Assembly: GCA_025351765.1 (NCBI GenBank)
Contig: JANXVH010000055.1
Coordinates: 1-64,000 of the forward strand
Origin: Pedobacter sp.
Lineage (GTDB): Bacteria > Bacteroidota > Bacteroidia > Sphingobacteriales > Sphingobacteriaceae
DNA length: 64,000 nucleotides
Direction of reading: 5' to 3'
Below, piece after piece: positions 7,802-40,465 of the stretch (the first letter of the stretch is position 1; the number at the start of each line of letters is the position of its first letter). The notes under the pieces are model-generated. The model saw only the letters and a program-made list of their open reading frames with translations, made no database searches and was not told the origin of the DNA. Made by a program: the position numbers and the translations under genes.

Positions 7802-7836
7802 TTAAGCGTTTGACACCTATTGAAAAACATAACAAA

Positions 7837-8367: not shown

Positions 8368-8410
8368 CACATAAATAAGTAAATTACAACAATTTTTAAG
8401 AACAATAGAG

Positions 8411-8983: not shown

Positions 8984-9040
8984 AATAAAAACAGCTATCG
9001 GCGCCGAGGGTACTGTATATGATGTTAAATAATTAAATTG

Positions 9041-9075
9041 CGGGATTGAGTAATAAAACTCAATCCCGTTTTTTT
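9041..9075 (+). terminator. Rho-independent terminator
   Basis: cgggattgag-taataaaa-ctcaatcccg followed by seven T; downstream of the ompH genes and just before murI. Confidence 0.9.
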
Positions 9076-9078
9076 ATC

Positions 9079-9900
9079 ATGAAAAATCAGTCTATAGGCA
9101 TATTTGATTCAGGGTACGGTGGTTTAACCGTATTCAAGTCTATATCGGAAAAGCTACCTGATTATAATTACATCTACATGGGCGATAATGCCCGTTCACC
9201 TTATGGCGACCATTCTTTTGAAACTGTCTATGAGTATACCCTAGAGTGCGTAGAATGGTTGTTTTCTCAAGGATGCCCTCTAGTTATATTAGCTTGTAAT
9301 ACAGCATCGGCCAAAGCACTTAGATCGATACAACAAAAAGTTCTTCCAGTTAAGTTTCCTGAAAATAGGGTGCTTGGAGTTATCAGGCCTACCGCTGAGG
9401 TAATTGGCGATTACAGCGCCACAAAAGTAATAGGGGTAATGGGCACCAGGGGGACTGTTAACTCATCGTCTTATCTAATGGAGATTAGCAAATTCTTTCC
9501 TAACGTTGTAGTACACCAACAGAGCTGCCCTATGTGGGTTCCATTAGTGGAGAACAATGAGCACCTCAATTCTGGAGCTGATTATTTCATTGAAAAATAT
9601 ATAGCCAGCCTGCTCTCAAAAAATAAGATGATAGATACCATATTACTGGCTTGTACGCACTACCCGTTGTTGGCGCCAAAGATAGAATTGGTGCTACCTC
9701 CAAATGTGAAGCTGGTTGGGCAAGGTGACATTGTGGCAAGTAGCCTGGCTCATTACTTAGAGAACCATCCGGAAATGAAACAGAAGCTCGGGATCGACGG
9801 TAAAAGAAGCTTTTTTACTACTGGTGAATCTGAAATATTTAATGAGCACGCCTCTTTATTTTTCCATGCGGTGGTCAAATCAGAGCATGTTGATCTGTGA
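9079..9900 (+). CDS. murI: glutamate racemase
   Basis: IGIFDSGYGGLTVFKSI, LACNTASAKALR and LLACTHYPLLAPKI signatures. Confidence 0.96.
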   Translation: MKNQSIGIFDSGYGGLTVFKSISEKLPDYNYIYMGDNARSPYGDHSFETVYEYTLECVEWLFSQGCPLVILACNTASAKALRSIQQKVLPVKFPENRVLGVIRPTAEVIGDYSATKVIGVMGTRGTVNSSSYLMEISKFFPNVVVHQQSCPMWVPLVENNEHLNSGADYFIEKYIASLLSKNKMIDTILLACTHYPLLAPKIELVLPPNVKLVGQGDIVASSLAHYLENHPEMKQKLGIDGKRSFFTTGESEIFNEHASLFFHAVVKSEHVDL

Positions 9901-9992
9901 GACTAAGATGACTATAATCTGAATTTAGATTGCATTTCTTTCTAGGTTCTAAAGGTTATTAACTCTAAATTTGCGGCTCAAATAAGACACTA

Positions 9993-11894
9993 ATGAGTGA
10001 TTCGATTAAACACGAATGCGGGATAGCTTTTATCAGGCTTCTGAAACCCCTCTCGTATTACCAGGAAAAGTACGGTACTGCACTTTACGGACTCAATAAG
10101 CTTTATCTTTTAATGGAAAAACAGCATAACCGCGGTCAGGATGGCGCAGGTATTGCTACCATTAAACTGAATATGAAACCTGGGCACCGCTACATTAGCA
10201 GGTACAGGTCTATGGCTCAGAATGCTGTTGCAGACATCTTTGGATATGTACAGAGCAAGTTTGTAGGTATTCAGAATGAAACACCAGAACTGATGCAGGA
10301 TGCCGAATGGCTAAAAGCAAATGTGAGTTTTATTGGAGAGGTGTTGTTAGGCCACCTTAGATACGGTACACATGGACAGAACAGCATTGAGAACTGTCAC
10401 CCATTTCTACGCCAGAATAACTGGATGACCAGGAATCTGGTAATTGCTGGTAACTTCAATATGACCAATGTTGATGAGTTGTTAGAGCAATTGTACGAAT
10501 TGGGGCAGCATCCTAAGGAGCAGGCAGATACAGTAACTGTTTTAGAGAAAATAGGTCACTTTCTGGATGATGAGAACCAAACCTTATTTGATGAATACAA
10601 AAAAGAGGGACTGGATAATGTGGATATCACCCATAAAATATCTGATAACCTTGACATCGCAAAAATACTGAAACGTTCTGCCAAGAACTGGGATGGAGGC
10701 TATGCGATATCTGGAATAGTTGGTAATGGCGATGCCTTTGTATTAAGAGACCCTTCTGGTATCAGGCCGGCGTTTTATTACCAGGACGATGAAATTGTAG
10801 TGGCTGCTTCAGAACGGCCGGCAATTCAGACTGCATTTAATATTCCGTTTAAAGATGTTAAAGAAATACAACCCGGTCATGCGTTGATTGTTAAGAAAGA
10901 TGGAACAGTTAGTCAGGAAATATTCAGGGATCCCGAAGAGAAAAGAGCTTGTTCATTTGAGCGCATCTATTTCTCCAGAGGTAGTGATGCTGAGATTTAC
11001 CGGGAGCGTAAGCATCTTGGAGCACTATTGTGCGATCAGATCCTTGAGGCGGTAAATTCAAACCTTAAGAATACGGTATTTTCATTTATTCCAAATACTG
11101 CAGAAGTATCATTTTATGGAATGGTTGAAGGTCTTCACAGTTACATTAGAAATGTACAAAAGGATACACTGCTTCACCGAAAGGAGACATTAACAGACGA
11201 GCAGTTGGATGAGTTGTTGTCTATGAATCCAAGAGTGGAGAAACTGGCCATCAAAGATGTTAAGCTTAGGACTTTCATTACCCAGGATGCCGATAGGCAA
11301 GATATGGTAGCACATGTTTATGATACTACCTATGGAGTAATTAAAAATCATACAGATACGCTAGTTGCAGTTGATGATTCTATTGTAAGAGGTACTACGC
11401 TTAAACAAAGTATTATCAAGATCATTGATAGGCTTCATCCTAAGAAAATCATTATTGTATCTTCTGCCCCACAGATCCGTTATCCAGATTGTTATGGTAT
11501 TGATATGTCTAAAATGGGTCAATTTGTTGCCTTTGAAGCTGCTATACAACTTTTAAAGGCTAACGGAATGGAACACATCATAGAAGAAGTTTATCAAAAA
11601 TGTAAAGCTTCTTTGCTACTGCCTAAAGAAGAGATTGTAAATCATGTAAAAGATATCTACAGGCCGTTTAAACAACAGGAAATATCAGATCAGATTACTA
11701 AAATTATTACTCCGGAAAATATCAATGCGGAAGTGAAAGTGATTTACCAGACACTTGATAACCTACATGTAGCTTGCCCTAACCATAGTGGAGACTGGTA
11801 CTTTTCTGGAAATTACCCAACACCTGGTGGAAATAAAGTGGTTAATAAAGCCTTTGTAAACTGGAAAGAAGGAAATAACCAAAGAGCTTATTAA
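9993..11894 (+). CDS. class II glutamine amidotransferase / amidophosphoribosyltransferase-like protein (PurF-like, long form)
   Basis: N-terminal ECGIAFIRL, QHNRGQDGAGIAT, DPSGIRPAFYY, and PRTase motif LVAVDDSIVRGTT. Confidence 0.85.
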   Translation: MSDSIKHECGIAFIRLLKPLSYYQEKYGTALYGLNKLYLLMEKQHNRGQDGAGIATIKLNMKPGHRYISRYRSMAQNAVADIFGYVQSKFVGIQNETPELMQDAEWLKANVSFIGEVLLGHLRYGTHGQNSIENCHPFLRQNNWMTRNLVIAGNFNMTNVDELLEQLYELGQHPKEQADTVTVLEKIGHFLDDENQTLFDEYKKEGLDNVDITHKISDNLDIAKILKRSAKNWDGGYAISGIVGNGDAFVLRDPSGIRPAFYYQDDEIVVAASERPAIQTAFNIPFKDVKEIQPGHALIVKKDGTVSQEIFRDPEEKRACSFERIYFSRGSDAEIYRERKHLGALLCDQILEAVNSNLKNTVFSFIPNTAEVSFYGMVEGLHSYIRNVQKDTLLHRKETLTDEQLDELLSMNPRVEKLAIKDVKLRTFITQDADRQDMVAHVYDTTYGVIKNHTDTLVAVDDSIVRGTTLKQSIIKIIDRLHPKKIIIVSSAPQIRYPDCYGIDMSKMGQFVAFEAAIQLLKANGMEHIIEEVYQKCKASLLLPKEEIVNHVKDIYRPFKQQEISDQITKIITPENINAEVKVIYQTLDNLHVACPNHSGDWYFSGNYPTPGGNKVVNKAFVNWKEGNNQRAY

Positions 11895-25309: not shown

Positions 25310-26884
25310 TTATAGAACTTCTCTTAAATCGTTCTTATTTAACCATCCCTTTGTTACCTCGCCATCATTATTGGTATGGGTAATTAAAATGAAACCATTT
25401 TGCTCGTCCAGCACACTAATTTTGTAATTTACCCCTACAACCGCCACACCATGTTTTACAGATTCGCCACTCGGTTCATCATAAAAGTATGCAGCCCCTT
25501 TTGGCATTTTAAACTTTTTGCCATTGCTAACCAGAGTAGGTTCTAGTCCGTTATTAACAGCAACAACAGGCGTTGCAGGCTTTACTTCTTTGTCGCCGGT
25601 CTGCTCTATGTACGCCTTTTTTAAACTATCAACTTCTGCATTTCGTTTTGCTGTATCAACTACTTTTGCTGGTGGATTGATTCTTGTCGTGTCAGGTTTT
25701 ACAGGGTAGGGGATACTTAATGCAGAAGTATCAGGTGCAAGATTGGCAAGAGAATCTTTATATACAATCTGTTTTTTATCTGTGTTTGCAAGAAATAAGG
25801 AATAGGAAGAGTAAGCACCTAATGCCACCAGCAGCAGGATAAGTGAAATAAATAAAGGTTTGGATACTTCCATTGTATCTGGCGATCGCATATCTCCAGG
25901 ATTGATCGTATCCGCTGTAGTGGCTGTTGGTACACTAGCGGGCACTTTTACCACCTTTGCTAAAGGAACACTTGTTTGCTCTAAGTTTTCATGCAAGATC
26001 GCTTCCTGAAGTTCAGTTCCATTTGCATAGCGCTTCTCCGGGTTCTTTTCCAAACATTTCTTAATTACCTGCGTAAGCCAAAATGGGATGTTCATTTCCC
26101 TTGCTTTTGTGTTTTCCGACCAATTTTCTGGTATGTTACTTTTACGCAGCGCCAGCAAGTCAGGAACAGGCTTTTCCATATGGGATACCATTACGGAATT
26201 TCTATTAGCCTCTCCCTTACTGGTTAATGGGAAAGGAACTTGCCCAGCTAATAATTCATAAAGTATTATCCCAAAGCTATAGATGTCTGTCTGGAAAAAC
26301 ATCTCTCCATCGTGTTGTTCAGGAGCCATAAATTCTACCGCACCGGCATGTTGTATGCTACTGCGGCGCTGTTCATCAGACATGATTGCCAATCCAAAAT
26401 CAAGCAATATATAATTACCTGTATCCGTATTAAACTTTACGTTATTGCTTTTTATATCTCCATGCTTTACACCAACCCTATGGCAATGTGCCAGCGCATT
26501 GCCTAATTGATGTGCCAGTTTTTTTGTTTCCCTTATAGTGAAAATAGGAGTGTGTGGTGGCTGAAGCAATTCTTCCAAATCAGGGCCTTCGATGTACTGC
26601 ATCTCGATAAATGGAAAAGATCCGCTTTCCGTTAAACCCGAGTTAACGATTTTAACTACATTGGGATTAGGAATCTCGTTAACTTTTTTAAGTTTCTCTA
26701 CTTCGTTCTTAAAATTCCTATAGTTTTTATCATCTAAATTTTCTGTATGTATAGGCGTAGGCAAGATTTTTACAGCGGTGATGATCTCGCCAATTCTTTT
26801 TCCTTTATACACCGAACCCTGACCACCGGTACGCAGGGCTCCCATATTTTCTAATCCTTCTGTTATGGTAAATACTTTACTCAT
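25310..26884 (-). CDS. Ser/Thr protein kinase, single TM, C-terminal SH3-like extracytoplasmic domain
   Basis: GGQGSVYKGKR, AVKILP, VKHGDIKSNNVKF (HGD catalytic loop), LLDFGLA, EFMAPEQ, DIYSFGIILYELL; TM LFISLILLLVALGAYSSYSLFL; C-terminal SH3-like segment. Confidence 0.93.
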   Translation of the reverse strand: MSKVFTITEGLENMGALRTGGQGSVYKGKRIGEIITAVKILPTPIHTENLDDKNYRNFKNEVEKLKKVNEIPNPNVVKIVNSGLTESGSFPFIEMQYIEGPDLEELLQPPHTPIFTIRETKKLAHQLGNALAHCHRVGVKHGDIKSNNVKFNTDTGNYILLDFGLAIMSDEQRRSSIQHAGAVEFMAPEQHDGEMFFQTDIYSFGIILYELLAGQVPFPLTSKGEANRNSVMVSHMEKPVPDLLALRKSNIPENWSENTKAREMNIPFWLTQVIKKCLEKNPEKRYANGTELQEAILHENLEQTSVPLAKVVKVPASVPTATTADTINPGDMRSPDTMEVSKPLFISLILLLVALGAYSSYSLFLANTDKKQIVYKDSLANLAPDTSALSIPYPVKPDTTRINPPAKVVDTAKRNAEVDSLKKAYIEQTGDKEVKPATPVVAVNNGLEPTLVSNGKKFKMPKGAAYFYDEPSGESVKHGVAVVGVNYKISVLDEQNGFILITHTNNDGEVTKGWLNKNDLREVL

Positions 26885-26896
26885 TTTGTAGCGCTA

Positions 26897-28171
26897 TTAA
26901 AATTCAGGGACATCATTTATCAGACCATCTTTCGTTTTTACCTGGCCATTTTTCTTCTTTGCTGGCTTGTTGTTTTTTTTATTATCAATTGCTTTGCTAT
27001 TGATCTTATTAAGAGTATCTGCCTTTGCAATTACCACACTGTCCTTCAATGCAGTTTCAGATTTTTTGCTTCCTCCAAATAACGAAGTCAATGCTAAAGT
27101 TACCAAACAAACCATTACCATTGCAGCGCCCACGTAAATAGATTTACTTTTATAATAGGTTCTATATTTATTTACTTCTGCTTTTAGCAGCTCATTTTCT
27201 TCTGTTAACCTTAGCGTATCTGTATCCCTTTCAATAATTGGCAATACGTTGTTCAAAGCCATATTGTTCTCCAGCTGATTGCATACCGCTTCGTGTAAGT
27301 GAATGCCGTTTAAGTATCGGTCTGATGGCGTTTTTTTGAGGCAGTTTGCGACGATCTCCAGCAACCACTCGGGTACTTTCATTTCTGCAAGCTTCTTATC
27401 CTCGTTCCATTCTTCAGGTAGCTTGTCTTTACGAAGCGATAGTAAATCTGGTATCTCTCTCTCTATATGAGCCAACATCACCTGATTACGGTTAGATTCA
27501 CCCTTGCTAATCAAAGGGAAAGGCACAACACCCGCAAGCAATTCGTACACGATAACGCCAAAGCTGTAAATGTCAGACTGAAATAAAATTTCACCCTCAT
27601 GCTGTTCTGGCGCCATAAACTCAACCGCACCTGCGTGGCGAAGACTGGTTCTGCGCTGCTCATCAGACATCACTGCGAGACCAAAATCTAACAAAATATA
27701 ATTCCCTGTATCGTTGTTGAATTTTATGTTATTGCTTTTAATATCTCCATGTTTCACCCCGGCCCTATGGCAATGCGATAGGGCGTTAGAAAGGTGGGTA
27801 GCCAATTTAATGGTTTCCCTTATTGTAAAAACCGGTGGATGTGGCGCTTTTAGCAATTGTTCCAAATCCGGACCTTCTATATATTCCATTTCTATAAATG
27901 GAAAAGATCCACTCTCTGTAAGTCCGGAGTTAATGATTTTTACCACATTGGGATTAGGGTCTTCATTAACCTTTTTCAGTTTTTCTACCTCGTTCTGAAA
28001 GTCCCTGAAGTTTTTGTCCTCAGTGTTTTCTGTGTAAATGGGAGTAGGCAATAATTTTACAGCAGAGATGATGGTACCTATACGTTTTCCCTTATACACC
28101 GACCCCTGGCCGCCTGTACTGAGCGCACCCATGTTTTCTAATCCATCTGTTATTGTGAATACCTTTGCCAT
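26897..28171 (-). CDS. Ser/Thr protein kinase, single TM with short Lys-rich tail
   Basis: Kinase domain nearly parallel to the neighbouring paralog (GGQGSVYKGKR, HGDIKSNNIKF, LLDFGLA, EFMAPEQ); TM IYVGAAMVMVCLVTLALTSLF. Confidence 0.93.
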   Translation of the reverse strand: MAKVFTITDGLENMGALSTGGQGSVYKGKRIGTIISAVKLLPTPIYTENTEDKNFRDFQNEVEKLKKVNEDPNPNVVKIINSGLTESGSFPFIEMEYIEGPDLEQLLKAPHPPVFTIRETIKLATHLSNALSHCHRAGVKHGDIKSNNIKFNNDTGNYILLDFGLAVMSDEQRRTSLRHAGAVEFMAPEQHEGEILFQSDIYSFGVIVYELLAGVVPFPLISKGESNRNQVMLAHIEREIPDLLSLRKDKLPEEWNEDKKLAEMKVPEWLLEIVANCLKKTPSDRYLNGIHLHEAVCNQLENNMALNNVLPIIERDTDTLRLTEENELLKAEVNKYRTYYKSKSIYVGAAMVMVCLVTLALTSLFGGSKKSETALKDSVVIAKADTLNKINSKAIDNKKNNKPAKKKNGQVKTKDGLINDVPEF

Positions 28172-28178
28172 TTAATAT

Positions 28179-28961
28179 TTATTGATTGTAGCTGAACTCC
28201 AATACAGCAGATTCTCCTAAGATAATTTGATCGCCCTCGTGCAATACAAAGCCAAGTTCCGTAAAGGTCAGTTTAACTGGGTTATGGTCAGCTTTAGAAC
28301 GGATTTTAACTTTATTTCTTGGGGGTACACCTCCATCATCGGCAAAAAGCATAAAAGCATCTGCTTCGTTATTCCATTCTATATGTGCATGCTGCCTGCT
28401 AATGTATTTATTACACTCGTTTGTACTCTCATCAGGAAAAGCAATATCATTATTTCTAAAAAAGCCATCCTTATCTTGCGCCTGTTTACCTCTGCCCATG
28501 TTAATTCTACCATCTGCAGATTTTATCGTATAAACTTCTTGTTCCGCTTCGCCTGCTAGTATTTTAATATATCCAGTCTCCAGTTTTTGAATAGCAGCAT
28601 GTTCAGGTGTCTTAATATAAAATGCCGCATCCAGATTCGTCATCTTAATTGCACTTTCTGGTAAACCATCAACATAGAGGGTTTCCATTGTCCAGCTTTC
28701 AGGCAGGTCTATTGCAAAGTCATCCGCAATGCGCTGTATCTCATTCTTAAAACGGTCTTGTTCTGCAGAGAATAGAGCAGAATCGTACATAAACTGCTCT
28801 GCAGGTAAACAGCAAATGTATAGTTGAAAACCTTTTATATTCTTGCCTTCACCACCTTCCATTTTTTGCAGTTCCTGTTTAATAAAAACCAACAAAGCTT
28901 CCCTAATGGCCTTTACATCTTGAGGTTTTTCCGGCGTATTCTTATTAAATAAATTAAACAT
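28179..28961 (-). CDS. FHA domain-containing protein
   Basis: C-terminal FHA signatures: INMGRGKQ and YISRQHAHIEW (SxxH), followed by NKVKI; separate N-terminal domain. Confidence 0.88.
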   Translation of the reverse strand: MFNLFNKNTPEKPQDVKAIREALLVFIKQELQKMEGGEGKNIKGFQLYICCLPAEQFMYDSALFSAEQDRFKNEIQRIADDFAIDLPESWTMETLYVDGLPESAIKMTNLDAAFYIKTPEHAAIQKLETGYIKILAGEAEQEVYTIKSADGRINMGRGKQAQDKDGFFRNNDIAFPDESTNECNKYISRQHAHIEWNNEADAFMLFADDGGVPPRNKVKIRSKADHNPVKLTFTELGFVLHEGDQIILGESAVLEFSYNQ

Positions 28962-28988
28962 CTTTTCGTTACTCCTTTAAATAAACAA

Positions 28989-31900
28989 TCAATTAATGAT
29001 CTGGTTTTCTACTGCAACTGTTGCCGGAACTTTCTTCATAGCCACCACTACAGCAGGTTTTTTTGTTTCTTCAACATATCCTAGCGCTTTCAGAACAGGT
29101 ACCACATGTTGACCCGCCAACAATACTGCCTTACTTGAACCTTTTGTTGATTCTATTCTTACACAAACCACAATATGCCCTTTACCAGTTTTCTTTGGTG
29201 CAAAAAATACATACCAACCATCATTTATGCGTTCCTTTTTCCAAACCCTTTCAGGAGTACCCGTTTTACCTGCAACCGTAAGGCCAAGCGTGGTAGATTT
29301 AGTGGCACTTTGCTTAAGCATAAAATCTGTCAAAAGCGCAGCATATTTAGGGTCATTCGTTAGCTTCAAGCCTGGTTTTACAGCTACTGTAGAGTCGCTA
29401 ATCTTTAATACATACCTATTTGGTACCAGCATTCCCTGATTAGCAACCGCAGAAGCTAGCCTAGCCACAGCAGCGGGCGTAGCAATAAGCTCACCTTGTC
29501 CCCATGCCATACCAGAAATGCCTTTAGCCCTGGTTCTTCTTATATTTGCAGGATCATATTTGGGCTTTGTATTGAACTCTGTTCGCCGCCAAAGGTTCAT
29601 CCATTCCTCTTCTTGCTTTTCGTTATTTAATGCTTTATCAAAGTAGTAGCCACCAACACCGCGCAAAAACATACCTGTTTTTAGGTACAGGGCAGCCATG
29701 TCTACCTGTAAATGCTCCTCATTAGCCAACTTTATAAAGTACACGTTGTTTGATTTTACAATAGCACGCTCCAGATTAATTTTTCCAGTCTCATCAGGCT
29801 CAATTCCCTTAGTTCTAATCCGCTCGTCCATGGTTACGTTAAAAGTTTTCTGTGTGGCGGCCAGCCCCAACTTGTTAAATGAAGCCATAGCGGTAAGTAC
29901 CTTAGCTGTTGATCCAGGTTGGGTAGCGTAGGTAAACCCTAAATCAACATTGGTATACCATCCAGCCAGTTTATTTTGTTCGGCGGTGGTCATGGTTAAC
30001 AATTCCCAATCCTTAACCTGCGGTAAAGGATAAACTGCGGAAGCCAGAACATCGCCGGTATTATCTTCCATAATCACAACTGAAACACGATTGTTTTTTA
30101 ACGAATCATCCTTACTAATTGAGTGCTGAATGGCGGTTTGCAATCGTGCATCCAAACTAAGTTTAACATCCCTATTTCGTTTTTTAAATTCTGCAACCTC
30201 AACACTGTTTATTCCTGCTAATAATAGGGGTGCTAATTCTGAATAATTTCTTTTACTAACCGTCATTTCTTTTACGCCACGGGGCAGGAAACGGTCTTCT
30301 CTATATTTGTTTGCTTTTGTATTTAATGAAGTAATGGGCGTGTGGAAACCTCTAAGTTCAGCGGCATGTTCATATTCAGCAAAATAGCCATTGGTACTCC
30401 CATTAAATACACCCGTATTCACATCACCTGTCCAAAAAAATGTTTGCTCTCCAAAAGGATAATACCGGTCAACTCTTTTATGCACTGCAGAATCCAGGTT
30501 GTAATCTACACCTGCCTGAGTAAGCAGGTTACGCTGTTTTTTTACCCTATTCGGATTACTAGTAGCCAATATTTTACCATTTCTGTCGTACAACTCTCCG
30601 GCTTCCAGTTTGTTCATCAATATAGCAATACGTGGATTGTAACTAAACATCCTCGCACCACTTTTATCTGCAACAAGAGCAGGCTGTACCACCCACTTTT
30701 TATTGTCCATCACATATTTAGAAACCGTTACAGTTAAGAGGAGCACAGCGATACTAGCTGAAAGTAGTGCGGGAACCAGGTTCTTATCTTGCCTTTTGGT
30801 AATAAATTCCATTTGCAGAGCCGTTCCCTTAACTTTAGAAACAGAAAGGAGAAAGCCCGCTGCTAACATATTAGCCACTAATGAAGAACCCCCATAGCTG
30901 ATGAATGGCAATGCTACACCTGAAAGAGGTAGCGCTCCTGTCGATCCTCCTGCAATCAAGAGGAATTGTACAAAAAGACTAATCCCAACGCCTGCCGAGA
31001 GGTAAAAGAGAAATGGTGTGCCTGTTTGTCGCCCGATAACAATAGAACGATTTAGTAAAACGAGAAATAAAATAAAAATACCTGTTATTGCGGCCAAGCC
31101 AAACTCTTCGCCAATTGCAGGCAAGATCATATCAGTATGGGCTTCGGGGATGGTTTTTGCGAAACCCTCACCCACACCTTGGCCACTAACGCCACCGCCT
31201 GCCATTGCCCAAATTCCATTGGCTACCTGGTCTCCACCGTAAACCTCATTATTCCATGGATCCTGCCAGATAGATTTTCTTTCAGAAAGCCTGTTAACCG
31301 GCCCTGGTATCAGCTTATCCAAATAAGGAATCTGGTCTATCAACAGAAAACCTGCCATAACCATAATTACCATCACCGCCGATTCGCTTGTCTGTTTCTT
31401 ATTAAAGAACATGGTTAAGGCAATAACAATAACCGTTGTAAGGCTGGCAATCCAGATATTCAGGAACCAAACTGTTAAGGTGTAAATGATAATGGCTACT
31501 AGCATCATCATAAAATCGCCCCTTGAAAAGGAGAATAGAATGATGAAGGTAAAACAGACTACCATAGCAGGGCCAAGATCGCCCAGTACCAGGTACATTA
31601 AAATAGCGACAAGCATTGCTGCCACAGCAAAAGAGAAAAAATACCATCTCTTTTGCCAACTGCGGTATTCTGTTATAAATTTTTCATTGCTTGCAAAAAA
31701 TCCTGCAAGGAAGAGGATAATACCATACTTTACAAGCTCGCTTGGTTGTATGCCAAATAAGTTCACTTTTACTCCGCTACCCTCAGGCCCGCTGCCAAAT
31801 AAAATGGTTAAACCTAACAGGCCTAGTGCTACAACTGCCCATTGCCAGCCATTGGCTTTGTTGCTTTTGTTGCTTAAAACAAACATTCTGTAAAAGCGGG

Positions 31901-33020
31901 AGTCTATCGTAAATTTTCTAAAGTTTATCAATATGGAAATTAACATCACCAGAATCCCTATTCCAAAAAACAAGAGTGAATCCTTAGCTAAAAACCGATC
32001 TCTAAGCGGATCCTGTAGGCTTAACAAGGTAATAAAAGAAATACCCGTCATTAACATAACCAGCGGTAAAACCAATTGATCTGCTTGTGGAAATTTAATA
32101 GTCAGGATCAAATGTAAAAACCAGAAGCCCAGAAAAAAGCTTACTGTAATAATCAAAAACCATTGGTTATACTCACCAATACTTCGTACGATAAGTGATT
32201 TTTCTTTCTTTAAAATCTTAAAGTCTCGTGCAGAAAAGAGCCTTATGGTATGTTGCGATTGCTTAAAGGTAAAACTGGCATCGCTGCTCAACTCCTGTAC
32301 GCCCTGCGATCGGCCAAATTGATATCCAGGTTGCAAGGGCAAAATCTCAAAACCTTTATCAGATGGCAGATGCTGAAAAGCAAAATGTCCATTCGCATCG
32401 GTTCGTACGTAAGAAACCAGTTCGGGTTTAGCTGGTATGGAATCATTTTCTACATAACCACTGTCCTGAGGCAAAATCATAGACATTTTGATTAATACCC
32501 CGGCTACAGCTGTGTTAGCCTTATTAATAATATTGCCGTCAATATTGTATTCACCAAGAGCCAGGTTCTTGGAGGCCGGTAATGCAGCCGGATTTTTCAG
32601 TTCCTCTTCAAAGCGTTTTTCATCATCACCGGTATAACCTAATAATGCCCTCGAGTCCGAAGCACGTTTTTTAAACACTTCTCCTCCAGAAGCATACGCA
32701 ACATCTGCATTTACAAAAAACTTGTTTTTATTCAACTCACCAATATTGTCTATGGGTTCAGTAAATAATTTTATCCCTCTTGTTACTGCATTCTCAATAG
32801 TTGCAATATCACGCTTATCTTCAAAATAATAACCTTTTTGCAACAGGCCGGATATCAGAGATCCAGCATTTCTGTTGTTTAAGTTAACCATTGTTCCGCG
32901 CTCAAGCCTGGTGTTTACATCTGCAAAACCGCGTTGCAACACGCTAAAAAGTGTAATGAATAAGGCGCCTAAAACAATAGTAATCAATAAAATAAAGATG
33001 CGTTCGGTTCTTCTATTCAT
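28989..33020 (-). CDS. SEDS (FtsW/RodA/SpoVE) - class B penicillin-binding protein fusion
   Basis: SEDS signature AMAGGGVSGQGVGEGFAKTIPEAHTDMILPAIGEEFG; C-terminal transpeptidase motifs PGSTAK (SxxK), KSNN (SxN), KTGTPERVW (KTG); one uninterrupted 1343-aa ORF. Confidence 0.96.
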   Translation of the reverse strand: MNRRTERIFILLITIVLGALFITLFSVLQRGFADVNTRLERGTMVNLNNRNAGSLISGLLQKGYYFEDKRDIATIENAVTRGIKLFTEPIDNIGELNKNKFFVNADVAYASGGEVFKKRASDSRALLGYTGDDEKRFEEELKNPAALPASKNLALGEYNIDGNIINKANTAVAGVLIKMSMILPQDSGYVENDSIPAKPELVSYVRTDANGHFAFQHLPSDKGFEILPLQPGYQFGRSQGVQELSSDASFTFKQSQHTIRLFSARDFKILKKEKSLIVRSIGEYNQWFLIITVSFFLGFWFLHLILTIKFPQADQLVLPLVMLMTGISFITLLSLQDPLRDRFLAKDSLLFFGIGILVMLISILINFRKFTIDSRFYRMFVLSNKSNKANGWQWAVVALGLLGLTILFGSGPEGSGVKVNLFGIQPSELVKYGIILFLAGFFASNEKFITEYRSWQKRWYFFSFAVAAMLVAILMYLVLGDLGPAMVVCFTFIILFSFSRGDFMMMLVAIIIYTLTVWFLNIWIASLTTVIVIALTMFFNKKQTSESAVMVIMVMAGFLLIDQIPYLDKLIPGPVNRLSERKSIWQDPWNNEVYGGDQVANGIWAMAGGGVSGQGVGEGFAKTIPEAHTDMILPAIGEEFGLAAITGIFILFLVLLNRSIVIGRQTGTPFLFYLSAGVGISLFVQFLLIAGGSTGALPLSGVALPFISYGGSSLVANMLAAGFLLSVSKVKGTALQMEFITKRQDKNLVPALLSASIAVLLLTVTVSKYVMDNKKWVVQPALVADKSGARMFSYNPRIAILMNKLEAGELYDRNGKILATSNPNRVKKQRNLLTQAGVDYNLDSAVHKRVDRYYPFGEQTFFWTGDVNTGVFNGSTNGYFAEYEHAAELRGFHTPITSLNTKANKYREDRFLPRGVKEMTVSKRNYSELAPLLLAGINSVEVAEFKKRNRDVKLSLDARLQTAIQHSISKDDSLKNNRVSVVIMEDNTGDVLASAVYPLPQVKDWELLTMTTAEQNKLAGWYTNVDLGFTYATQPGSTAKVLTAMASFNKLGLAATQKTFNVTMDERIRTKGIEPDETGKINLERAIVKSNNVYFIKLANEEHLQVDMAALYLKTGMFLRGVGGYYFDKALNNEKQEEEWMNLWRRTEFNTKPKYDPANIRRTRAKGISGMAWGQGELIATPAAVARLASAVANQGMLVPNRYVLKISDSTVAVKPGLKLTNDPKYAALLTDFMLKQSATKSTTLGLTVAGKTGTPERVWKKERINDGWYVFFAPKKTGKGHIVVCVRIESTKGSSKAVLLAGQHVVPVLKALGYVEETKKPAVVVAMKKVPATVAVENQIIN

Positions 33021-33021
33021 A

Positions 33022-34494
33022 TTAATCTGGAAAATTCAGGGATAGCGAGTCTGCACTAAATGAACTATACGGGATCTTACCGTTAATGTATTTCTTCTGT
33101 GATAGGTTATAGGTGCTTTGTAGCGTATTCGGGCAATTGGTAAAACGAATATTCCTTAAAACCAACGCGTTGTTTCCTGTTAATATGGCTGTATTAAAAT
33201 TCTTAAAAGCAATATTTCTCAATTGTATAAACTTGCTGGCCGGTCTTACAGTTATAGCAACACCTTTATAAAGAGAATCACTAATGATCACCACCTCCTT
33301 GTTGGACTTTAAATAAATAGTGTCCTTATTAAACTCAAGCGGCTGATGCAAAATAATAGGCGATGAAAAAAGCGAATCAGTGAGCACTAACGTCTGGCCT
33401 TTCATTTTATTCAGCGTGTCCTGAAGCATAATTTCTTTTGTATTTCTCTTTTCTGTAACCTCCGTAAGCGGTTGTTGTTTTACTTGATTAGCAGGAAGGA
33501 AGATGTAATACCAATATAGGCATGTAGTTGTTGCAATAAATATAAGAGTGGTGAAAGAAAGTAAAAGAGTGAGGCCTCTTTGTGGTACATATATTATTTT
33601 CTGCGTCATATCGGTAATAGAGGTTTCGTTCACCTTTCCTAAAATGCTGGGAGGTGCTGGTTTGTTTTCATCAAAAAGTAAGGGCTGAGCAACAACAGCG
33701 GCTTTAGCAGACTGCTCTGGTTTGGTAGCCTCATGCAATACTGGTGGGTTTGTATTGTGTACCAAAACAACTGTAATATTGTCGGCACCACCATTTTTAT
33801 TTGCTGCGGCAATAAGCATTGTTCCTTTTTCTGCTAAATCCTTCCCTTCGTTTAATGCAACAATTATCTCATTTTTGTTTACCATATCAGATAGTCCGTC
33901 GCTGCAGAGCAACAACAAATCTCCTGGTAAAAAAGGAGATTGACCCATTTCCATATAATCATCCTGATCTGCCAGATTAACTCCAAAACCCAATGCCTTA
34001 TTAATTTCATTACGTTTGGGATGTTTCATGGCTTCTTCTTCAGTTAACCGGCCAGTATCTTCCATAAAACCAACAAAAGACTGGTCTCGTGTAATCTTAA
34101 CCAAAGAATTATCACGTAGCAGATACATCCTAGTATCGCCCACATGTGTATAATGTAAAATGTTTTTATTGAGGTCTACTAGAGCCAGTGTCAAAACACA
34201 AGCCATGTTTTCCAGCTCTTTTACCTGCTGTTTCTCCGCAACTATCTTTGCATCAGCTTCTGATATCGCCTTCTTCATCAGTGTTAGGATATCACCCTGA
34301 GGCTTACTCAAATGCTCCAATACAGAAAGCTTTGTTATCTCTGCAGCAATTTCGCCACCAGAGTAACCACCTACACCGTCAATTACGCAGGCAATTATAT
34401 AATCACCAGAAGCGGTATCTTTTGCAATAAAGGTGTCTTCATTGTTGGTCCGAACTTTACCAATGTCTGTTATTCCGAAATAATTTTTATTCAT
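33022..34494 (-). CDS. PP2C family Ser/Thr phosphatase with TM and C-terminal beta-helix-like domain
   Basis: GKVRTNNEDTF, CVIDGVGGYSGGE, LLCSDGLSDMV, GGADNITVVLV; TM LTLLLSFTTLIFIATTTCLYWYYIF; start set at MNKNYFG (34494). Confidence 0.94.
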   Translation of the reverse strand: MNKNYFGITDIGKVRTNNEDTFIAKDTASGDYIIACVIDGVGGYSGGEIAAEITKLSVLEHLSKPQGDILTLMKKAISEADAKIVAEKQQVKELENMACVLTLALVDLNKNILHYTHVGDTRMYLLRDNSLVKITRDQSFVGFMEDTGRLTEEEAMKHPKRNEINKALGFGVNLADQDDYMEMGQSPFLPGDLLLLCSDGLSDMVNKNEIIVALNEGKDLAEKGTMLIAAANKNGGADNITVVLVHNTNPPVLHEATKPEQSAKAAVVAQPLLFDENKPAPPSILGKVNETSITDMTQKIIYVPQRGLTLLLSFTTLIFIATTTCLYWYYIFLPANQVKQQPLTEVTEKRNTKEIMLQDTLNKMKGQTLVLTDSLFSSPIILHQPLEFNKDTIYLKSNKEVVIISDSLYKGVAITVRPASKFIQLRNIAFKNFNTAILTGNNALVLRNIRFTNCPNTLQSTYNLSQKKYINGKIPYSSFSADSLSLNFPD

Positions 34495-34495
34495 C

Positions 34496-34585
34496 TTACT
34501 CTGGTGAGTTTTTAACGTGTTTAAAATGTGCAATAAGTATTGCTAAACAGAGAACTAGGAATGCTATAGAAAGAATATGCGACAT
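34496..34585 (-). CDS. 29-aa single-TM microprotein (not in the supplied ORF track)
   Basis: Reading from the minus strand: MSHILSIAFLVLCLAILIAHFKHVKNSPE*; 5 nt after the FHA stop and 1 nt before the PP2C ATG. Confidence 0.65.
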   Translation of the reverse strand: MSHILSIAFLVLCLAILIAHFKHVKNSPE

Positions 34586-34590
34586 ATTAA

Positions 34591-35541
34591 TTAGGATTTA
34601 AAAATGTTCATACCTATAATTCCGTTTAGAATGATCCGGGAGTTAAGCGGTAATTCTGTCCATTTTGGCTCATTAATATCGCTCCTTTCAATCAGATTTT
34701 CATTAACAATAGTTTTCTCTCCAAATGATGCCAGGTAAAATTTATCATCCGCATCGCTATACCTTATTTTAAGGTGAGGCGTATTTACCCATTCTGAAGG
34801 AATTTTGAATATATAATCCTCAGCTCTGGCGTCTTCCTCACCAGTTACGATGATCTCTTCTTTTTTCATCAAAAACTCAACCTTCTTACCAGAATATGCC
34901 CGGTCTGGCAGGGTGGTTTCAAACCTTGCAAGCAATTCATTTTCTTTATTTAGCGGAGTTTTAGGATCGAATACCAGCGTGCTCACATACGGTATTTCAT
35001 AATAGCCTTCACTATAAAATATGAAGTCCTTAAGGATATCGTTATTGATATCAAATGTCTGTGCCATACCTGTTTGACGGGGAATAAAAGTTACCCGCAG
35101 GTTCTCTTCTTTTTTATTATTGTCTGGAAGCAGTTTGCCAATAAAACCCTTATCGCCAGGTTTATAATCTGGATGAGATACAAAACGGAATACCCATTTA
35201 TTACTGGATGGCTCCGCTTTTTTACCTTCATTGATTTTTTGATTCAATATTTCGTAAAAATTCTTAACAGATTCCTGTGCAATCAAACCCAGTATGCCTT
35301 TCTTATTGTCCATAAACTCACGATAGTCATCTGTATTAAGGCAAATGATGTATTCATGGTAAAAAACAATACGTTCAGCAAAAGAAAGCTGCGCCATAGA
35401 TTCTTCGAACTTCTCAATAATATATTTAAATACAATATTAGGAGTAAGAGCTTTGGCTTTTGCCGCCGCAGTGCCTTCATTATTGGTCAGAAACCAGTCC
35501 TGAACGCCAATTCGTTGCCAAAAAGAGGTTTTTTCAATCAT
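34591..35541 (-). CDS. FHA-like domain-containing protein (degenerate FHA)
   Basis: C-terminal VNTPHLKIRYSDADDKFYLASFGEKTIVNENLI ... LPLNSRIILNG is FHA-like; large uncharacterised N-terminal domain; operon partner of PP2C and kinases. Confidence 0.75.
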   Translation of the reverse strand: MIEKTSFWQRIGVQDWFLTNNEGTAAAKAKALTPNIVFKYIIEKFEESMAQLSFAERIVFYHEYIICLNTDDYREFMDNKKGILGLIAQESVKNFYEILNQKINEGKKAEPSSNKWVFRFVSHPDYKPGDKGFIGKLLPDNNKKEENLRVTFIPRQTGMAQTFDINNDILKDFIFYSEGYYEIPYVSTLVFDPKTPLNKENELLARFETTLPDRAYSGKKVEFLMKKEEIIVTGEEDARAEDYIFKIPSEWVNTPHLKIRYSDADDKFYLASFGEKTIVNENLIERSDINEPKWTELPLNSRIILNGIIGMNIFKS

Positions 35542-35813: not shown

Positions 35814-37733
35814 TTAGATAGGAGTAATCCAGTTCAATGCCTCCTGGTAATCCTGAAAAAGCATGATCTGGAGCAAACCTTTTGCGGAACCGGTACTCTT
35901 GCCAACGGAAAGCTTACTAAATGAGCTTGGCGAATGGATCCATGCAAAATGGCGTAATCCTTCTTTCTCTACCATGGGCAGCCAGATCTCCCTTAACCAG
36001 TCAGTAGCTTCAGACCAGCTGCCGGGTACATGAGAGTTGTCTGCAAGGAGTTTTTTAGCTTTAAAAGCTTTTATCATACTCAATATTTTTAAACAACCAG
36101 ATTGTATTGATTCTGCATTTTGGAAACCTGTCCAGTCTGCCTCTATACAACTTGTTTTTTCATTGAACTTAACAGTTGTATATTCATCAACATAGTAATC
36201 AGGATCGTTCCTGGAGGGTAAAGCAATGATTGACTTTGGTAAGGGCAGTCTAAAGAAGAATTTTGAACCTACACCAAGGGTGCTTTCAATCCAAAAACTT
36301 CCGTTATGTCTTTTTAAGATTTCGGATGAAATGAACAACCCCAATCCCAGGCCTTCAAAATGCATTGTTTTGTTATCGGCACGGTAATAACGTTCAAACA
36401 GGTGGTCCATATCATGCTGATCGATACCTATACCAAAATCCTGAATAGAAACAATGATGTTATTGAGCAATACTTTAAATTCTACATTAACCCGATCACT
36501 TTTGGGCGAGTATTTAATGGCATTTGTTAAAAAATTACTCAATACTTGTTCAATTCGGATCTTATCCCCATTGTATAAAATAGAACTACCTTTTTTTAGG
36601 TTTATTTTGTGCGAACTGGAAACGAGCTGTACATTATCAACCACGTCAGCAAGCATCTCACTAAAGTTAAACTCCTGCATAGTATACTGCATTTTTCCTG
36701 CGTTTAGCTTGGTTACATCAAGCAAATCTGATATAAGCCTGCCCAGACGCGTAATGTTTTCGGCAGATTTTTGGGCATAGTTGTGCAGTTTATTGACATC
36801 TGAAGAGCGCTGCATCAGCTGGTTAAATGCTTTAATGCTGGTTAGCGGTGTTTTCAGTTCGTGACTGGCAATGGAAAGAAACTCATCCTTCATGTGTTCG
36901 CTGTTTCTAGCATTAACTAATTCTGTTATGTCATAAGAAAAGCTAAGGACACCATTTACCTTTCCATGCTCGTCAAGTCTGGCCTGGTACATAATATTAA
37001 AGTAGTAATCTTTAAAAATTTGTTCCTGGTGATTAAAGAGCTTAACTGGTATTTCTTTCCCTTCGTAGGTTAACCCGGTTTGGTAAACCTTTTTCAGTTC
37101 CTGATAAACAGGATGGTTGGCCATTTCAGGCAACACTTCAATAACAGGTTTGCCAATCAGGTCAAGGTATCCAAAATGTTGATGATACATTGGGTTGACA
37201 AATTCGTAGATCAGTTCAGGTCCAGAAAGCACGGCTATTCTGGCAGGCAAATCGGCAAATAATTTTTCAATACGCCTGCTTAGCTGAACGGATTTTGACG
37301 CAGCCGTAGTCTGCTTTTCCAGACTCACTTTTAAACTATTTTCTGTAAGTATTTGAGGGGTTACATCAATAGTGGAATGAATAAGATATAATATTTCTCC
37401 GTTCGTATCCAGTACAGGGGTGTTTGTGCTCTCCCAATACTGATCTAAAAGATAAGCCACCGGCAGCTGATGTTGTTTTTTAATTTGGAGCACATTTTGC
37501 AAAGAATCTCTCAATGCATAAGAGTTTTTATTAGTCTCATCTACAGGAAAAACATCAAAAAGATACTTTCCGCTAATACCTTCCCGTGTTTTTAAAGTGC
37601 GTTCTAGATAAAGATTACTTGCTGTTAGAATAACCAGATTAGGCGATAAAATAAGGCACATGGATGGTATGGTTTCAAATACCTTTAATACCTCAAGTCC
37701 GTTTTCCTTTTGCTGCTGCATGAGTGATATCAA
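35814..37733 (-). CDS. PAS domain sensor histidine kinase with C-terminal extension
   Basis: H-box SIASHELKTPLTSIKAFNQLMQR, N-box NFLTNAIKYSP, GLGLGLFISSEILKRH; PAS-like N-terminus; about 120-aa tail after the ATPase domain. Alternative start at 37721. Confidence 0.93.
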   Translation of the reverse strand: MISLMQQQKENGLEVLKVFETIPSMCLILSPNLVILTASNLYLERTLKTREGISGKYLFDVFPVDETNKNSYALRDSLQNVLQIKKQHQLPVAYLLDQYWESTNTPVLDTNGEILYLIHSTIDVTPQILTENSLKVSLEKQTTAASKSVQLSRRIEKLFADLPARIAVLSGPELIYEFVNPMYHQHFGYLDLIGKPVIEVLPEMANHPVYQELKKVYQTGLTYEGKEIPVKLFNHQEQIFKDYYFNIMYQARLDEHGKVNGVLSFSYDITELVNARNSEHMKDEFLSIASHELKTPLTSIKAFNQLMQRSSDVNKLHNYAQKSAENITRLGRLISDLLDVTKLNAGKMQYTMQEFNFSEMLADVVDNVQLVSSSHKINLKKGSSILYNGDKIRIEQVLSNFLTNAIKYSPKSDRVNVEFKVLLNNIIVSIQDFGIGIDQHDMDHLFERYYRADNKTMHFEGLGLGLFISSEILKRHNGSFWIESTLGVGSKFFFRLPLPKSIIALPSRNDPDYYVDEYTTVKFNEKTSCIEADWTGFQNAESIQSGCLKILSMIKAFKAKKLLADNSHVPGSWSEATDWLREIWLPMVEKEGLRHFAWIHSPSSFSKLSVGKSTGSAKGLLQIMLFQDYQEALNWITPI

Positions 37734-37810
37734 TATAGAATTGCTTGTATCAAAATTACATAATTATACGCTAAAATAAATGGGCATATCTTTTGTTGTG
37801 CAAACCTTGA

Positions 37811-40465
37811 ATGATGTTAGCTGAACTGATACAAACTAAAGACTGGTCTAACACTGCGCTTGGGAGACGTGAAGACTGGCCGGAAGACTTAAAACTAGCC
37901 GTAAATATTTGCCTGAATTCAGGTTTTCCTATAGCCTTATACTGGGGTTCTGAATTTACGTTGATCTATAATGACGCCTGGAGCAGCATTCCGGGCGACA
38001 AACATCCTATGGCGCTGGGTAGACCAGGTCCCGAGGTTTGGCCAGAGATATGGGATGGATTAGCGCCAGAATTTAATAGCGTACTAAATTCAGGAGAGTC
38101 TATTAGACGGCCAGATGCTTTGCTCTTAATGAACCGTTATGGTTATGTAGAGGAATGTTATTTTGATTATTCGCTTTCGCCGATTATGGATGTTAATCAG
38201 AAAATTGGCGGGGTGTTTAATGCGGTTGTGGAAACTACTTACAAAGTAATTAACGAGCGTAGAAAACAGTTGTTGCATCAATTATTACTTGCTAATTTAT
38301 TAAGAAGCACAGCTGATAGTTTGCGGAATATTGAAGCACTGTTGGGCGCGGCTACAGAAGATATTCCATTTAGTCTTTTATATACATTCTCTAACAACGA
38401 CCCGATAACTGGCGAAATAGCCATATATACCGGAACGAAAACCGAAGAAGTTTTGAGGGCAAATTGGCCTAAACCTGATCATAAAGATGGGCACCAATCG
38501 GTATATGTGGGTGACTTACTCCAGTTTGTAGAGGCACTTCCTTTGAACTTAAGGAGAGAAGAGTGCACAGAAGTTTTAGTGGTACCAGTAAACGCAGCTT
38601 ATGCGAATGTTAACGGCTATATGGTGATGGGTATATCGCCAAGGAAACGGTTGGATACAGACTATAGGCATTTTTTGGAATCGGTTGGCTTGCATATCGG
38701 GAACATTTTAAGCAATTCATACGCTTTTGAAAAAGAGAGCCTGTTTGAGCGTGAACAAGCATTAAATGAAGAACTTGCCGCTGCCAATGAAGAATTAGGT
38801 GCAACAAACGAAGAGCTTCAACATACACAGGAAAGCCTTGCTACTTTAAACCAAGAACTGGAAAGGCGGGTTGCTTATAGAACCAAAGCCCTGGTAGAAA
38901 GTGAGCACAGGCTTCAAATTATGGTGATGACTTCGCCAATTGGCGTTGGTGTATTTAAAGGTAGAAATCTGAAGGTAGAGATGGCCAATCAACAAATGCT
39001 TGACATTTGGGGCCTTACGCGGGAGCAGGTGATTGGTAAAGATCTTGTTGATGTGTTTCCGGAACAGATCGAACAACCATATTTGACGCTTTTTGATCAT
39101 GTATATACTACAGGGAAACTCGTGTCAAACTCTGAAATAGAGGCAACAATGGTTACTGCCGACGGTAGCAAGAAAATTTACATGGATCTGCAGTATTCAC
39201 CATTATATGATGCCGATCAAAATATTGATGCCATTATGGCTTCGATTATTAATATAACACCTATTGTAGAATCACGTAAAAAGTTAGAGCAGAGCGAGCA
39301 GGAACAGCAGGTGCTTAACGAGGAATTAATGGCAACTAATGAAGAACTTGCCGTTTCAATGGAACAGCTTGCTATAAGTGAGCGCAAAAAAGACGAATTC
39401 ATTTCTATTGCCAGTCACGAGTTAAAAACACCACTAACCAGTATAAAAGCATTTAACCAGTTAATGCAGCGCACACAAGATCCGGAGCGTATGAAAAGCT
39501 TTATATTAAAGTCGTCAGAACAGGTACACCGTTTGGAAATGCTAATAAGAGATTTGTTAGATGTAACCAAGATCAATGCAGGTAAGATGAATTATAATAT
39601 GGAGCCTTTTAATTTTGCAGAAATGGTTTCCGGAAGTGTAGAAAGCGTGCAGCATACCACAACTACCCATGAGATTATATTGGAAAATAATGAGCAGATT
39701 ACCTATAGGGGCGATCAGCTAAGGTTGGAACAAGTATTGCAAAATTTCCTCTCAAACGCAATCAAATATTCGCCACAAGGTAAAAAAGTAATCGTAAAAA
39801 GCCGGATAGAACAGAATAACATTGTGGTATCTGTACAGGATTTTGGGATTGGAATTGCAGCAAACAAACTGGATCGTTTATTTGACAGGTATTACCGGGT
39901 AGACAATACGGCGATGCAGTTTGAGGGTTTGGGTTTAGGGTTGTTCATCTCTTCAGAAATATTAAAAAGGCATGAAGGTAGCTTTTGGATAGAAAGTGAA
40001 CCGGGCAACGGTGCTAATTTCTTTTTTAGGCTGCCATTGCATACAGATCAGTTGATTAGTACAAAGGTAAAAACAGAGACCTATTATCTGGACGAGCACA
40101 TTGCAATTAGTTACAATAGTTTTGCAAAGATGCTGGAAGTGGATTGGACAGGTTACCAGAACATGGAAACCGTTAAAAGTGGTGGAATGCTTATGTTAGA
40201 AATGCTGGAGAAGAATAAATGTGCTAAAGTGTTGAACGACAATACGCATGTGTTGGGTTCATGGTCTGAAGCCGCAGATTGGGCTGGCAACGAGTGGTTC
40301 CCTATGATGGAGCGGGCTGGACTTAAGTCCTTAGCTTGGGTATATTCCCCAAGTGTGTTTAGCAGACTAGCCGCAAAAAGAAGTGTAGATATTGCAATTG
40401 GCGATGTAGTAACTCAGTTTTTTACAGATACAGCGCTTGCAGGCCAATGGCTTGATGGGAAGTAA
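37811..40465 (+). CDS. PAS domain sensor histidine kinase with C-terminal extension
   Basis: H-box SIASHELKTPLTSIKAFNQLMQR, NFLSNAIKYSP, GLGLGLFISSEILKRH; coiled-coil linkers; same C-terminal extension as the divergent neighbour. Confidence 0.94.
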   Translation: MMLAELIQTKDWSNTALGRREDWPEDLKLAVNICLNSGFPIALYWGSEFTLIYNDAWSSIPGDKHPMALGRPGPEVWPEIWDGLAPEFNSVLNSGESIRRPDALLLMNRYGYVEECYFDYSLSPIMDVNQKIGGVFNAVVETTYKVINERRKQLLHQLLLANLLRSTADSLRNIEALLGAATEDIPFSLLYTFSNNDPITGEIAIYTGTKTEEVLRANWPKPDHKDGHQSVYVGDLLQFVEALPLNLRREECTEVLVVPVNAAYANVNGYMVMGISPRKRLDTDYRHFLESVGLHIGNILSNSYAFEKESLFEREQALNEELAAANEELGATNEELQHTQESLATLNQELERRVAYRTKALVESEHRLQIMVMTSPIGVGVFKGRNLKVEMANQQMLDIWGLTREQVIGKDLVDVFPEQIEQPYLTLFDHVYTTGKLVSNSEIEATMVTADGSKKIYMDLQYSPLYDADQNIDAIMASIINITPIVESRKKLEQSEQEQQVLNEELMATNEELAVSMEQLAISERKKDEFISIASHELKTPLTSIKAFNQLMQRTQDPERMKSFILKSSEQVHRLEMLIRDLLDVTKINAGKMNYNMEPFNFAEMVSGSVESVQHTTTTHEIILENNEQITYRGDQLRLEQVLQNFLSNAIKYSPQGKKVIVKSRIEQNNIVVSVQDFGIGIAANKLDRLFDRYYRVDNTAMQFEGLGLGLFISSEILKRHEGSFWIESEPGNGANFFFRLPLHTDQLISTKVKTETYYLDEHIAISYNSFAKMLEVDWTGYQNMETVKSGGMLMLEMLEKNKCAKVLNDNTHVLGSWSEAADWAGNEWFPMMERAGLKSLAWVYSPSVFSRLAAKRSVDIAIGDVVTQFFTDTALAGQWLDGK

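Follow-up and report, generated by a model that had tools for sequence, protein, structure and literature searches.

Organization of the locus

The window analysed here is a 64,000-nt stretch of Pedobacter sp. GCA_025351765.1 (contig JANXVH010000055.1, positions 1-64,000 of the forward strand). It contains an operon at positions 25310-35541 in which a SEDS glycosyltransferase and a class B penicillin-binding protein (PBP) are fused in a single chain, and which also codes for two FHA-related proteins (FHAa and FHAb), a transmembrane (TM) microprotein, a PP2C-type phosphatase and two Hanks-type Ser/Thr kinases (PK1 and PK2). All seven open reading frames (ORFs) are on the minus strand (Table 1). 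The intergenic gaps from FHAa through to PK2 are exactly 5, 1, 1, 27, 7 and 12 nt, and the gene set, order, strand and all six gaps given in the initial annotation of this DNA agree with the ORF list. The arrangement is far from chance, because it recurs in every related locus examined and because the microprotein frame is under purifying selection.

Table 1. Genes and domains of the Pedobacter operon, in order of transcription; domains of the fusion follow the gene that encodes them.
Feature	Position in window	Strand	Description
FHAa (FhaA-like)	34591..35541	-	316 aa; FhaA_N-related alpha/beta N-terminal domain and degenerate C-terminal FHA fold; predicted cytoplasmic
TM microprotein	34496..34585	-	29 aa, MSHILSIAFLVLCLAILIAHFKHVKNSPE; single-pass membrane protein
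PP2C-type Ser/Thr phosphatase	33022..34494 (from its ATG)	-	Cytoplasmic domain, TM (residues 308-326) and extracytoplasmic tail
SEDS::class B PBP fusion	28989..33020	-	1343 aa; Pfam FTSW_RODA_SPOVE and Transpeptidase
Fusion, extracytoplasmic domain, CarboxypepD_reg-like	32160..32936	-	Between two extra N-terminal TM helices
Fusion, SEDS glycosyltransferase part	30816..32159	-	Conserved Asp D630
Fusion, transpeptidase domain	29142..30083	-	S1037xxK, S1090xN, K1252TG
FHAb	28179..28961	-	N-terminal alpha/beta domain and canonical FHA domain (G156-R157, S188-R-x-H191, N216)
PK1, Hanks-type Ser/Thr kinase	26897..28171	-	HGD, non-RD; one TM (residues 347-365); short extracytoplasmic tail
PK2, Hanks-type Ser/Thr kinase	25310..26884	-	HGD; one TM (residues 348-366); C-terminal extracytoplasmic domain

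A predicted single-chain peptidoglycan synthase

Pfam scans of the fusion match FTSW_RODA_SPOVE (PF01098; 152.9 bits against a cut-off of 26.4) and Transpeptidase (86 bits against 22) in the same frame, and the SEDS Asp and the SxxK, SxN and K[TS]G motifs are invariant in 90/90 fusion homologues. At the level of sequence this shows that one chain holds a SEDS polymerase and a class B PBP transpeptidase, both intact. The pair resembles RodA-PBP2 and FtsW-FtsI in joining a polymerase to a transpeptidase with invariant catalytic residues; however, those pairs are made of two polypeptides and have neither a dedicated kinase/phosphatase/FHA operon nor an extra TM hairpin. The hairpin consists of two additional N-terminal helices (residues 10-28 and 288-306 in the window), and exactly two such helices are present in 88/90 fusions. 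The domain between them matches the CarboxypepD_reg-like family PF13620 in 12/13 members (best E 9.5e-6), above the cut-off in loci L246 and L247. A loop of the fusion has the nearly invariant residues A-G-G-S at positions 690-693. In Pedobacter sp. V48 the fusion gene (L031:7005-11035 = L126) is split over two overlapping frames, reflecting either a frameshift or an assembly error.

FHA proteins and a membrane microprotein

FHAa has no match to any Pfam family. Its AlphaFold (AF2) model has a confidence (pLDDT) of 74, mostly 84-92 in the C-terminal half, where an FHA fold is predicted that matches, among others, the FHA domains of MDC1, GarA and Rv0020c (2lc1) in the PDB; an alpha/beta domain lies N-terminal to it. 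In 96 sequences the residue at the Arg site is variable (N/K/S/D/E), so that FHAa is unlikely to recognise phosphothreonine in the usual mode; the Ser site is mostly Asn. FHAb scores 19 bits against the Pfam FHA cut-off of 20.7, and all 13 relatives scanned match FHA. Its AF2 model (pLDDT 86) likewise has FHA fold matches and an N-terminal alpha/beta domain. The Gly-Arg and Ser-Arg-x-His residues are invariant (91/91) and the Asn is present in 90/91, and FHAb retains the predicted phosphothreonine-binding residues. Fold searches with the whole FHAa and FHAb models returned the FHA halves only, and are therefore uninformative on the N-terminal domains. Two FHAb homologues, at L248:11479-12753 and L246:10435-11805, carry an N-terminal HEPN_Swt1 domain (PF18731).

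A single-TM frame of 29-33 codons follows FHAa in 19/20 Pedobacter loci and ends in an HF-x-x-[IV]-K-like motif. By a loose criterion, a hydrophobic ORF of similar size follows FHAa in 92/93 wider loci, and the copy on a Spirosoma plasmid reads MIDALLVFVLLLFVIFLVLKHFQDLPR. The median dN/dS of about 0.22, together with differences by codon position of 0.39/0.22/0.57, points to purifying selection, and the microprotein is in all likelihood a genuine gene overlooked by annotation. A Bacteroidota-type promoter was considered at the TAATTTTG element 17 nt upstream of FHAa, but it is not conserved in relatives and we do not claim it.

Kinases and phosphatase

Both kinases match Pfam Pkinase (PK2, 123 bits; PK1, 121 bits), with the Lys, Asp and DFG intact and HGD replacing HRD in 138/141 sequences. 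Pfam detects no PASTA domains in PK1 or PK2, as the initial annotation had stated. The C-terminal extracytoplasmic domain of PK2 may be SH3b-like; the resemblance is suggestive by eye and SH3_3 matches weakly in one orthologue (E 0.063), so that an SH3b domain is not claimed. The phosphatase matches PP2C_2 in Pfam (52 bits), has a TM segment, and is 37% identical to Tsukamurella PstP. A membrane Hanks kinase and a PP2C tied to wall synthesis are also found in the PASTA-kinase/Stp systems of Gram-positives (PknB/Stk1/StkP, Stp/IreP), but the operon proteins lack PASTA and fall under both curated NCBIfam cut-offs, the best kinase match being PknB_PASTA (144 bits against 450) and the phosphatase scoring 197 bits against 230 for Stp1/IreP.

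The operon PP2C is the sole PP2C_2 match in the host genome and no further FHA above the Pfam threshold occurs outside the operon, although the genome is about 95% complete and these absences carry that margin. Three strong Hanks kinases are present, two in the operon and the third an unlinked paralogue of the same family (G000 contig C138:2671-3561, L228), whose kinase domain is about 67% identical to that of PK2. Comparable unlinked extra copies are seen in two other genomes (G012 and G025). A different Bacteroidota cluster, L234 (G052:C6), has two PknB-like kinases and a PP2C, and in BLAST comparisons its kinases resemble actinobacterial PknB more closely than PK1 and PK2 do.

Distribution and possible mobility

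Pattern scanning of 85,462 species genomes yielded 193 confirmed loci, and the best 80 were retained. They belong to Pedobacter, Mucilaginibacter and Daejeonella, and to Chitinophagaceae that include Segetibacter and Ferruginibacter. Every one of the 75 loci uncut by contig ends (75/75) has FHAa, PP2C, SEDS::PBP and FHAb in that order; where the contig extends far enough, at least one kinase lies ahead of FHAa, behind FHAb, or on both sides. FHAa homologues occur in 21/36 Pedobacter genomes, the window's own included, and in 81/296 genomes of the family, one copy each; the Pedobacter kinase family (E < 1e-100) is found in exactly the same 21/36 genomes and no other. Full-length fusions are present in 13/390 genomes sampled across the class, from three families, and in 15/396 sampled across the phylum, other classes included. 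The neighbourhood is thus conserved in several families and classes of the phylum, which runs counter to one of the refuting outcomes named in the initial annotation, a neighbourhood kept in no relative.

Variations on this organization occur. In the f67/Spirosoma lineage both kinases lie between PP2C and the fusion, and plasmid NZ_CP089545.1 of Spirosoma oryzicola carries this version at 69767-80323. The three most distant loci share a constant core of the fusion plus FHAb, and 2/3 also have FHAa. One of these loci, L248, from another class of the phylum, encodes a natural PP2C::SEDS::PBP triple fusion (1384 aa, 7262-11416) in one frame, a predicted protein in which phosphatase and synthase are directly coupled. 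A kinase with WD40 repeats is encoded near the triple fusion.

The genes flanking the operon are not conserved between loci, and in the fusion tree some Pedobacter species nest among Mucilaginibacter, which suggests that the operon moves between genomes. Two divergent PAS histidine kinase genes (HK1 and HK2, window 35814-40465) lie directly upstream of it here; neither was seen next to the operon in 114 other loci, and both are rejected as members. Pedobacter panaciterrae O48 has a second, inverted copy of the operon (G030 contig C1, about 68-79 kb) in which FHAa is broken by stop codons.

Such a distribution could also be that of a module for tolerance of wall stress or beta-lactams: a spare, inducible synthase whose transpeptidase has low affinity and which moves on mobile DNA. 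It would account for the patchy occurrence in the genus, the plasmid copy in Spirosoma, the unconserved flanks and the within-family transfers that the tree suggests, and the long matches of the transpeptidase that score best in the PDB and NCBIfam include PBP2a/MecA. Those matches are weak, however (35-40 bits, far under the model cut-offs), no conserved neighbour points to antibiotics, and tolerance would be a possible role for the synthase system argued for below, not a different machine. As a separate explanation we consider it rather unlikely.

Relationship to the actinobacterial fhaA-pknB locus

The fhaA-fhaB-pstP-rodA-pbpA-pknA-pknB locus of Mycobacterium and its relatives joins peptidoglycan synthesis with phospho-signalling (PMC6554272; PMC6736417), and the initial annotation saw the Pedobacter operon as its counterpart. 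We compared it with the actinobacterial operons of Tsukamurella, Nonomuraea, Nocardia, Arthrobacter and Actinomyces. Each system has an FhaA or FhaA-like protein, a second FHA protein, a membrane PP2C, a 12-TM SEDS (12 TM helices are predicted in C. glutamicum RodA; PMC4285798), a class B PBP and two membrane Hanks kinases, with the order fhaA-pstP-rodA-pbpA-kinase-kinase kept and the SEDS proteins in the same clade. The enzyme fusion, the separated FHA proteins and the lack of PASTA had been named as differences from Mycobacterium, and all three hold. In the Bacteroidota version SEDS and PBP are fused and a CarboxypepD_reg-like extracytoplasmic domain sits inside the extra TM hairpin, the second FHA protein follows the synthase, a TM microprotein is added, the FHA domain of FHAa is degenerate, and the kinases are of a different type; the host is Gram-negative, and the operon is an accessory one of patchy occurrence, present alongside complete FtsW and RodA systems.

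One link is provided by the SEDS part. Maximum likelihood trees that include FtsW and RodA from Bacteroidota, Actinomycetota, Bacillota and Gammaproteobacteria group the fusion SEDS with the FHA-linked SEDS of actinobacteria and clostridia, apart from FtsW/RodA (100/99 in two trees, 99/98 in another), and the approximately unbiased (AU) test rejects its union with Bacteroidota RodA (p 0.003 and 0.008). Two characters that are independent of the trees, a predicted TM hairpin and a loop signature, agree with this grouping. The two extra N-terminal helices are common to the fusions and the FHA-linked SEDS and are absent from canonical SEDS. The loop reads LIAGGS[TI]..PL[ST]G or VVGGVT..IPLTG, as against the canonical [IV]N[MLI], whose Asn is present in every canonical sequence checked. 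The clostridial representative, the FHA-SEDS-PBP cluster of Monoglobus pectinilyticus (NZ_OY725743.1, L218), also has an FHA gene adjoining a same-clade SEDS with the TM hairpin, plus a PBP, but its SEDS and PBP genes are separate, no kinase or PP2C adjoins, and the FHA protein is small. A second link is provided by FHAa: the homologue in locus L247 matches both FhaA_N (PF12401; 26.5 bits against a cut-off of 25) and FHA (45.6 bits), and the profile of the window FHAa aligns with the L247 and L248 proteins with a probability of 97% (E 7e-11).

Several observations weigh against this relationship. Union of the fusion SEDS with Bacteroidota FtsW is not rejected by the AU test (p 0.123 and 0.131). 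The connection of FHAa to FhaA rests on intermediates from phylum-level loci; in direct profile comparison, hhalign finds no significant match between the FHAa or FHAb N-termini and actinobacterial FhaA taken alone, and Pfam and PDB sequence searches give nothing significant between these N-termini and FhaA_N. An FhaA_N-like N-terminus in FHAb was rejected by profile comparison. In the trees of the kinases, PP2C and transpeptidase, none of these proteins groups with PknA/B, PstP or PbpA. In the kinase tree branches are long and PK1/PK2 and PknA/PknB form separate, weakly supported groups; the transpeptidase is not sister to PbpA in the best tree, a union that is not rejected (p 0.157 and 0.117). 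Furthermore, the operon kinases are non-RD and without PASTA, and in loci L246 and L247 neither a PP2C nor a kinase adjoins the core, which means that not every locus has the phospho part.

Part of this is what would be expected from convergence, in which Bacteroidota put the set together separately, drawing on FtsW/FtsI-like proteins of their own and on generic kinases, PP2C and FHA proteins, and the likeness is functional only. The FtsW union that the AU test leaves standing, the three trees that place no protein with its actinobacterial counterpart, and the different position of FHAb all fit with it. Convergence does not, however, account for a SEDS bipartition at 100/99 with FHA-linked SEDS of two other phyla, the shared hairpin and loop signature, FhaA_N together with FHA in the syntenic L247 FHAa, or the preserved fhaA-pstP-rodA-pbpA-kinase-kinase order, and we regard it as improbable. 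Given the SEDS grouping with its shared hairpin and loop, and the intermediate between FHAa and FhaA, the evidence favours common ancestry over convergence for the SEDS and FHAa parts at least. Kinship with the actinobacterial locus is thus supported for these two parts as judged by sequence comparison, whereas for the kinases, phosphatase and transpeptidase our trees speak neither for nor against it.

An accessory system

Both housekeeping clusters are complete in the host genome: dcw (ftsI, murE, mraY, murD, ftsW, murG, murC, ftsQ, ftsA, ftsZ) and mreB-mreC-mreD-mrdA-rodA. Because these lie elsewhere in the same genome, the fusion is a third, accessory SEDS-PBP pair; the separate ftsW, rodA, ftsI and pbp2 bear out the accessory status first proposed, and within Pedobacter the operon is patchy. 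The fusion could in principle be a paralogous duplicate of the host ftsW and ftsI that became fused and backs up division, and the SEDS part does score best against FtsW, both in NCBIfam models (ftsW 164 bits, rodA 129 bits) and in structural databases, where FtsW structures are among the best matches. The ftsW score is far under the cut-off of 337.5, though, the trees separate the fusion SEDS from all Bacteroidota FtsW, and the extra hairpin and an FHA linkage in every locus examined are foreign to such an origin, which makes it very unlikely. Least probable is a kinase/PP2C/FHA set that works for a different process, either control of type VI secretion or defence against phages, with the synthase a passenger: kinase-PP2C-FHA trios do accompany type VI secretion systems and PADLOC kinase models match PK1 and PK2 (E down to 2e-45), but those matches reflect the generic kinase fold, no other operon protein matches, the host genome has no T6SS_VipA, and no member is more constant than the synthase, which is PP2C-fused in L248, so that neither role finds support from the PADLOC models or the T6SS_VipA search.

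The best reading, to which we assign a probability of roughly 0.7, is that the locus encodes an accessory and self-contained peptidoglycan synthase together with a phospho-switch dedicated to it, and is a divergent relative of the actinobacterial fhaA-pknB locus. From the families to which the proteins belong we infer that the synthase is regulated by phosphorylation, with the signal passing from wall state through kinase, phosphothreonine and FHAb to the synthase. The extracytoplasmic parts of PK1 and PK2, and also those of PP2C and the fusion, would sense the state of the wall; the kinases would then phosphorylate threonines in their own juxtamembrane segments, the microprotein or the cytoplasmic loops of the fusion. 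FHAb would bind the phosphothreonine and dock on or switch the fused synthase, with FHAa as a putative phosphate-independent scaffold and PP2C resetting the switch. The fusion would set polymerase and cross-linker at 1:1, so that the operon could add controlled wall synthesis, for repair or for growth under wall stress, with no need for Rod or divisome proteins.

FHA-linked SEDS-PBP loci are already known, and searches of the open-paper literature brought up no description of the Bacteroidota version or of this fusion. What sets this version apart is the fusion, its extracytoplasmic insert, the microprotein, the degenerate FHAa, the kinase type, the accessory status and the Gram-negative host. 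More tentatively, and with doubt slightly outweighing belief, these features might define a third, mobile synthase system of Gram-negatives: a one-chain SEDS-bPBP, once phosphatase-fused, switched by kinases through an FhaA/FHA pair and an undescribed 29-aa membrane subunit, and sharing an ancestral FHA-SEDS-PBP module with the mycobacterial operon.

If the preferred reading of an accessory, phospho-switched synthase is correct, phospho-controlled SEDS-PBP synthesis extends beyond the Gram-positives. The natural single-chain SEDS-bPBP enzyme, and the PP2C::SEDS::PBP chain, would be on offer for biochemistry and structure. In mycobacteria the kinases of the locus are essential, which makes switching of the SEDS protein hard to study there; the operon described here, missing from many close relatives, would provide a dispensable Gram-negative system for work on the switching of a SEDS synthase by FHA proteins, kinases and a phosphatase.

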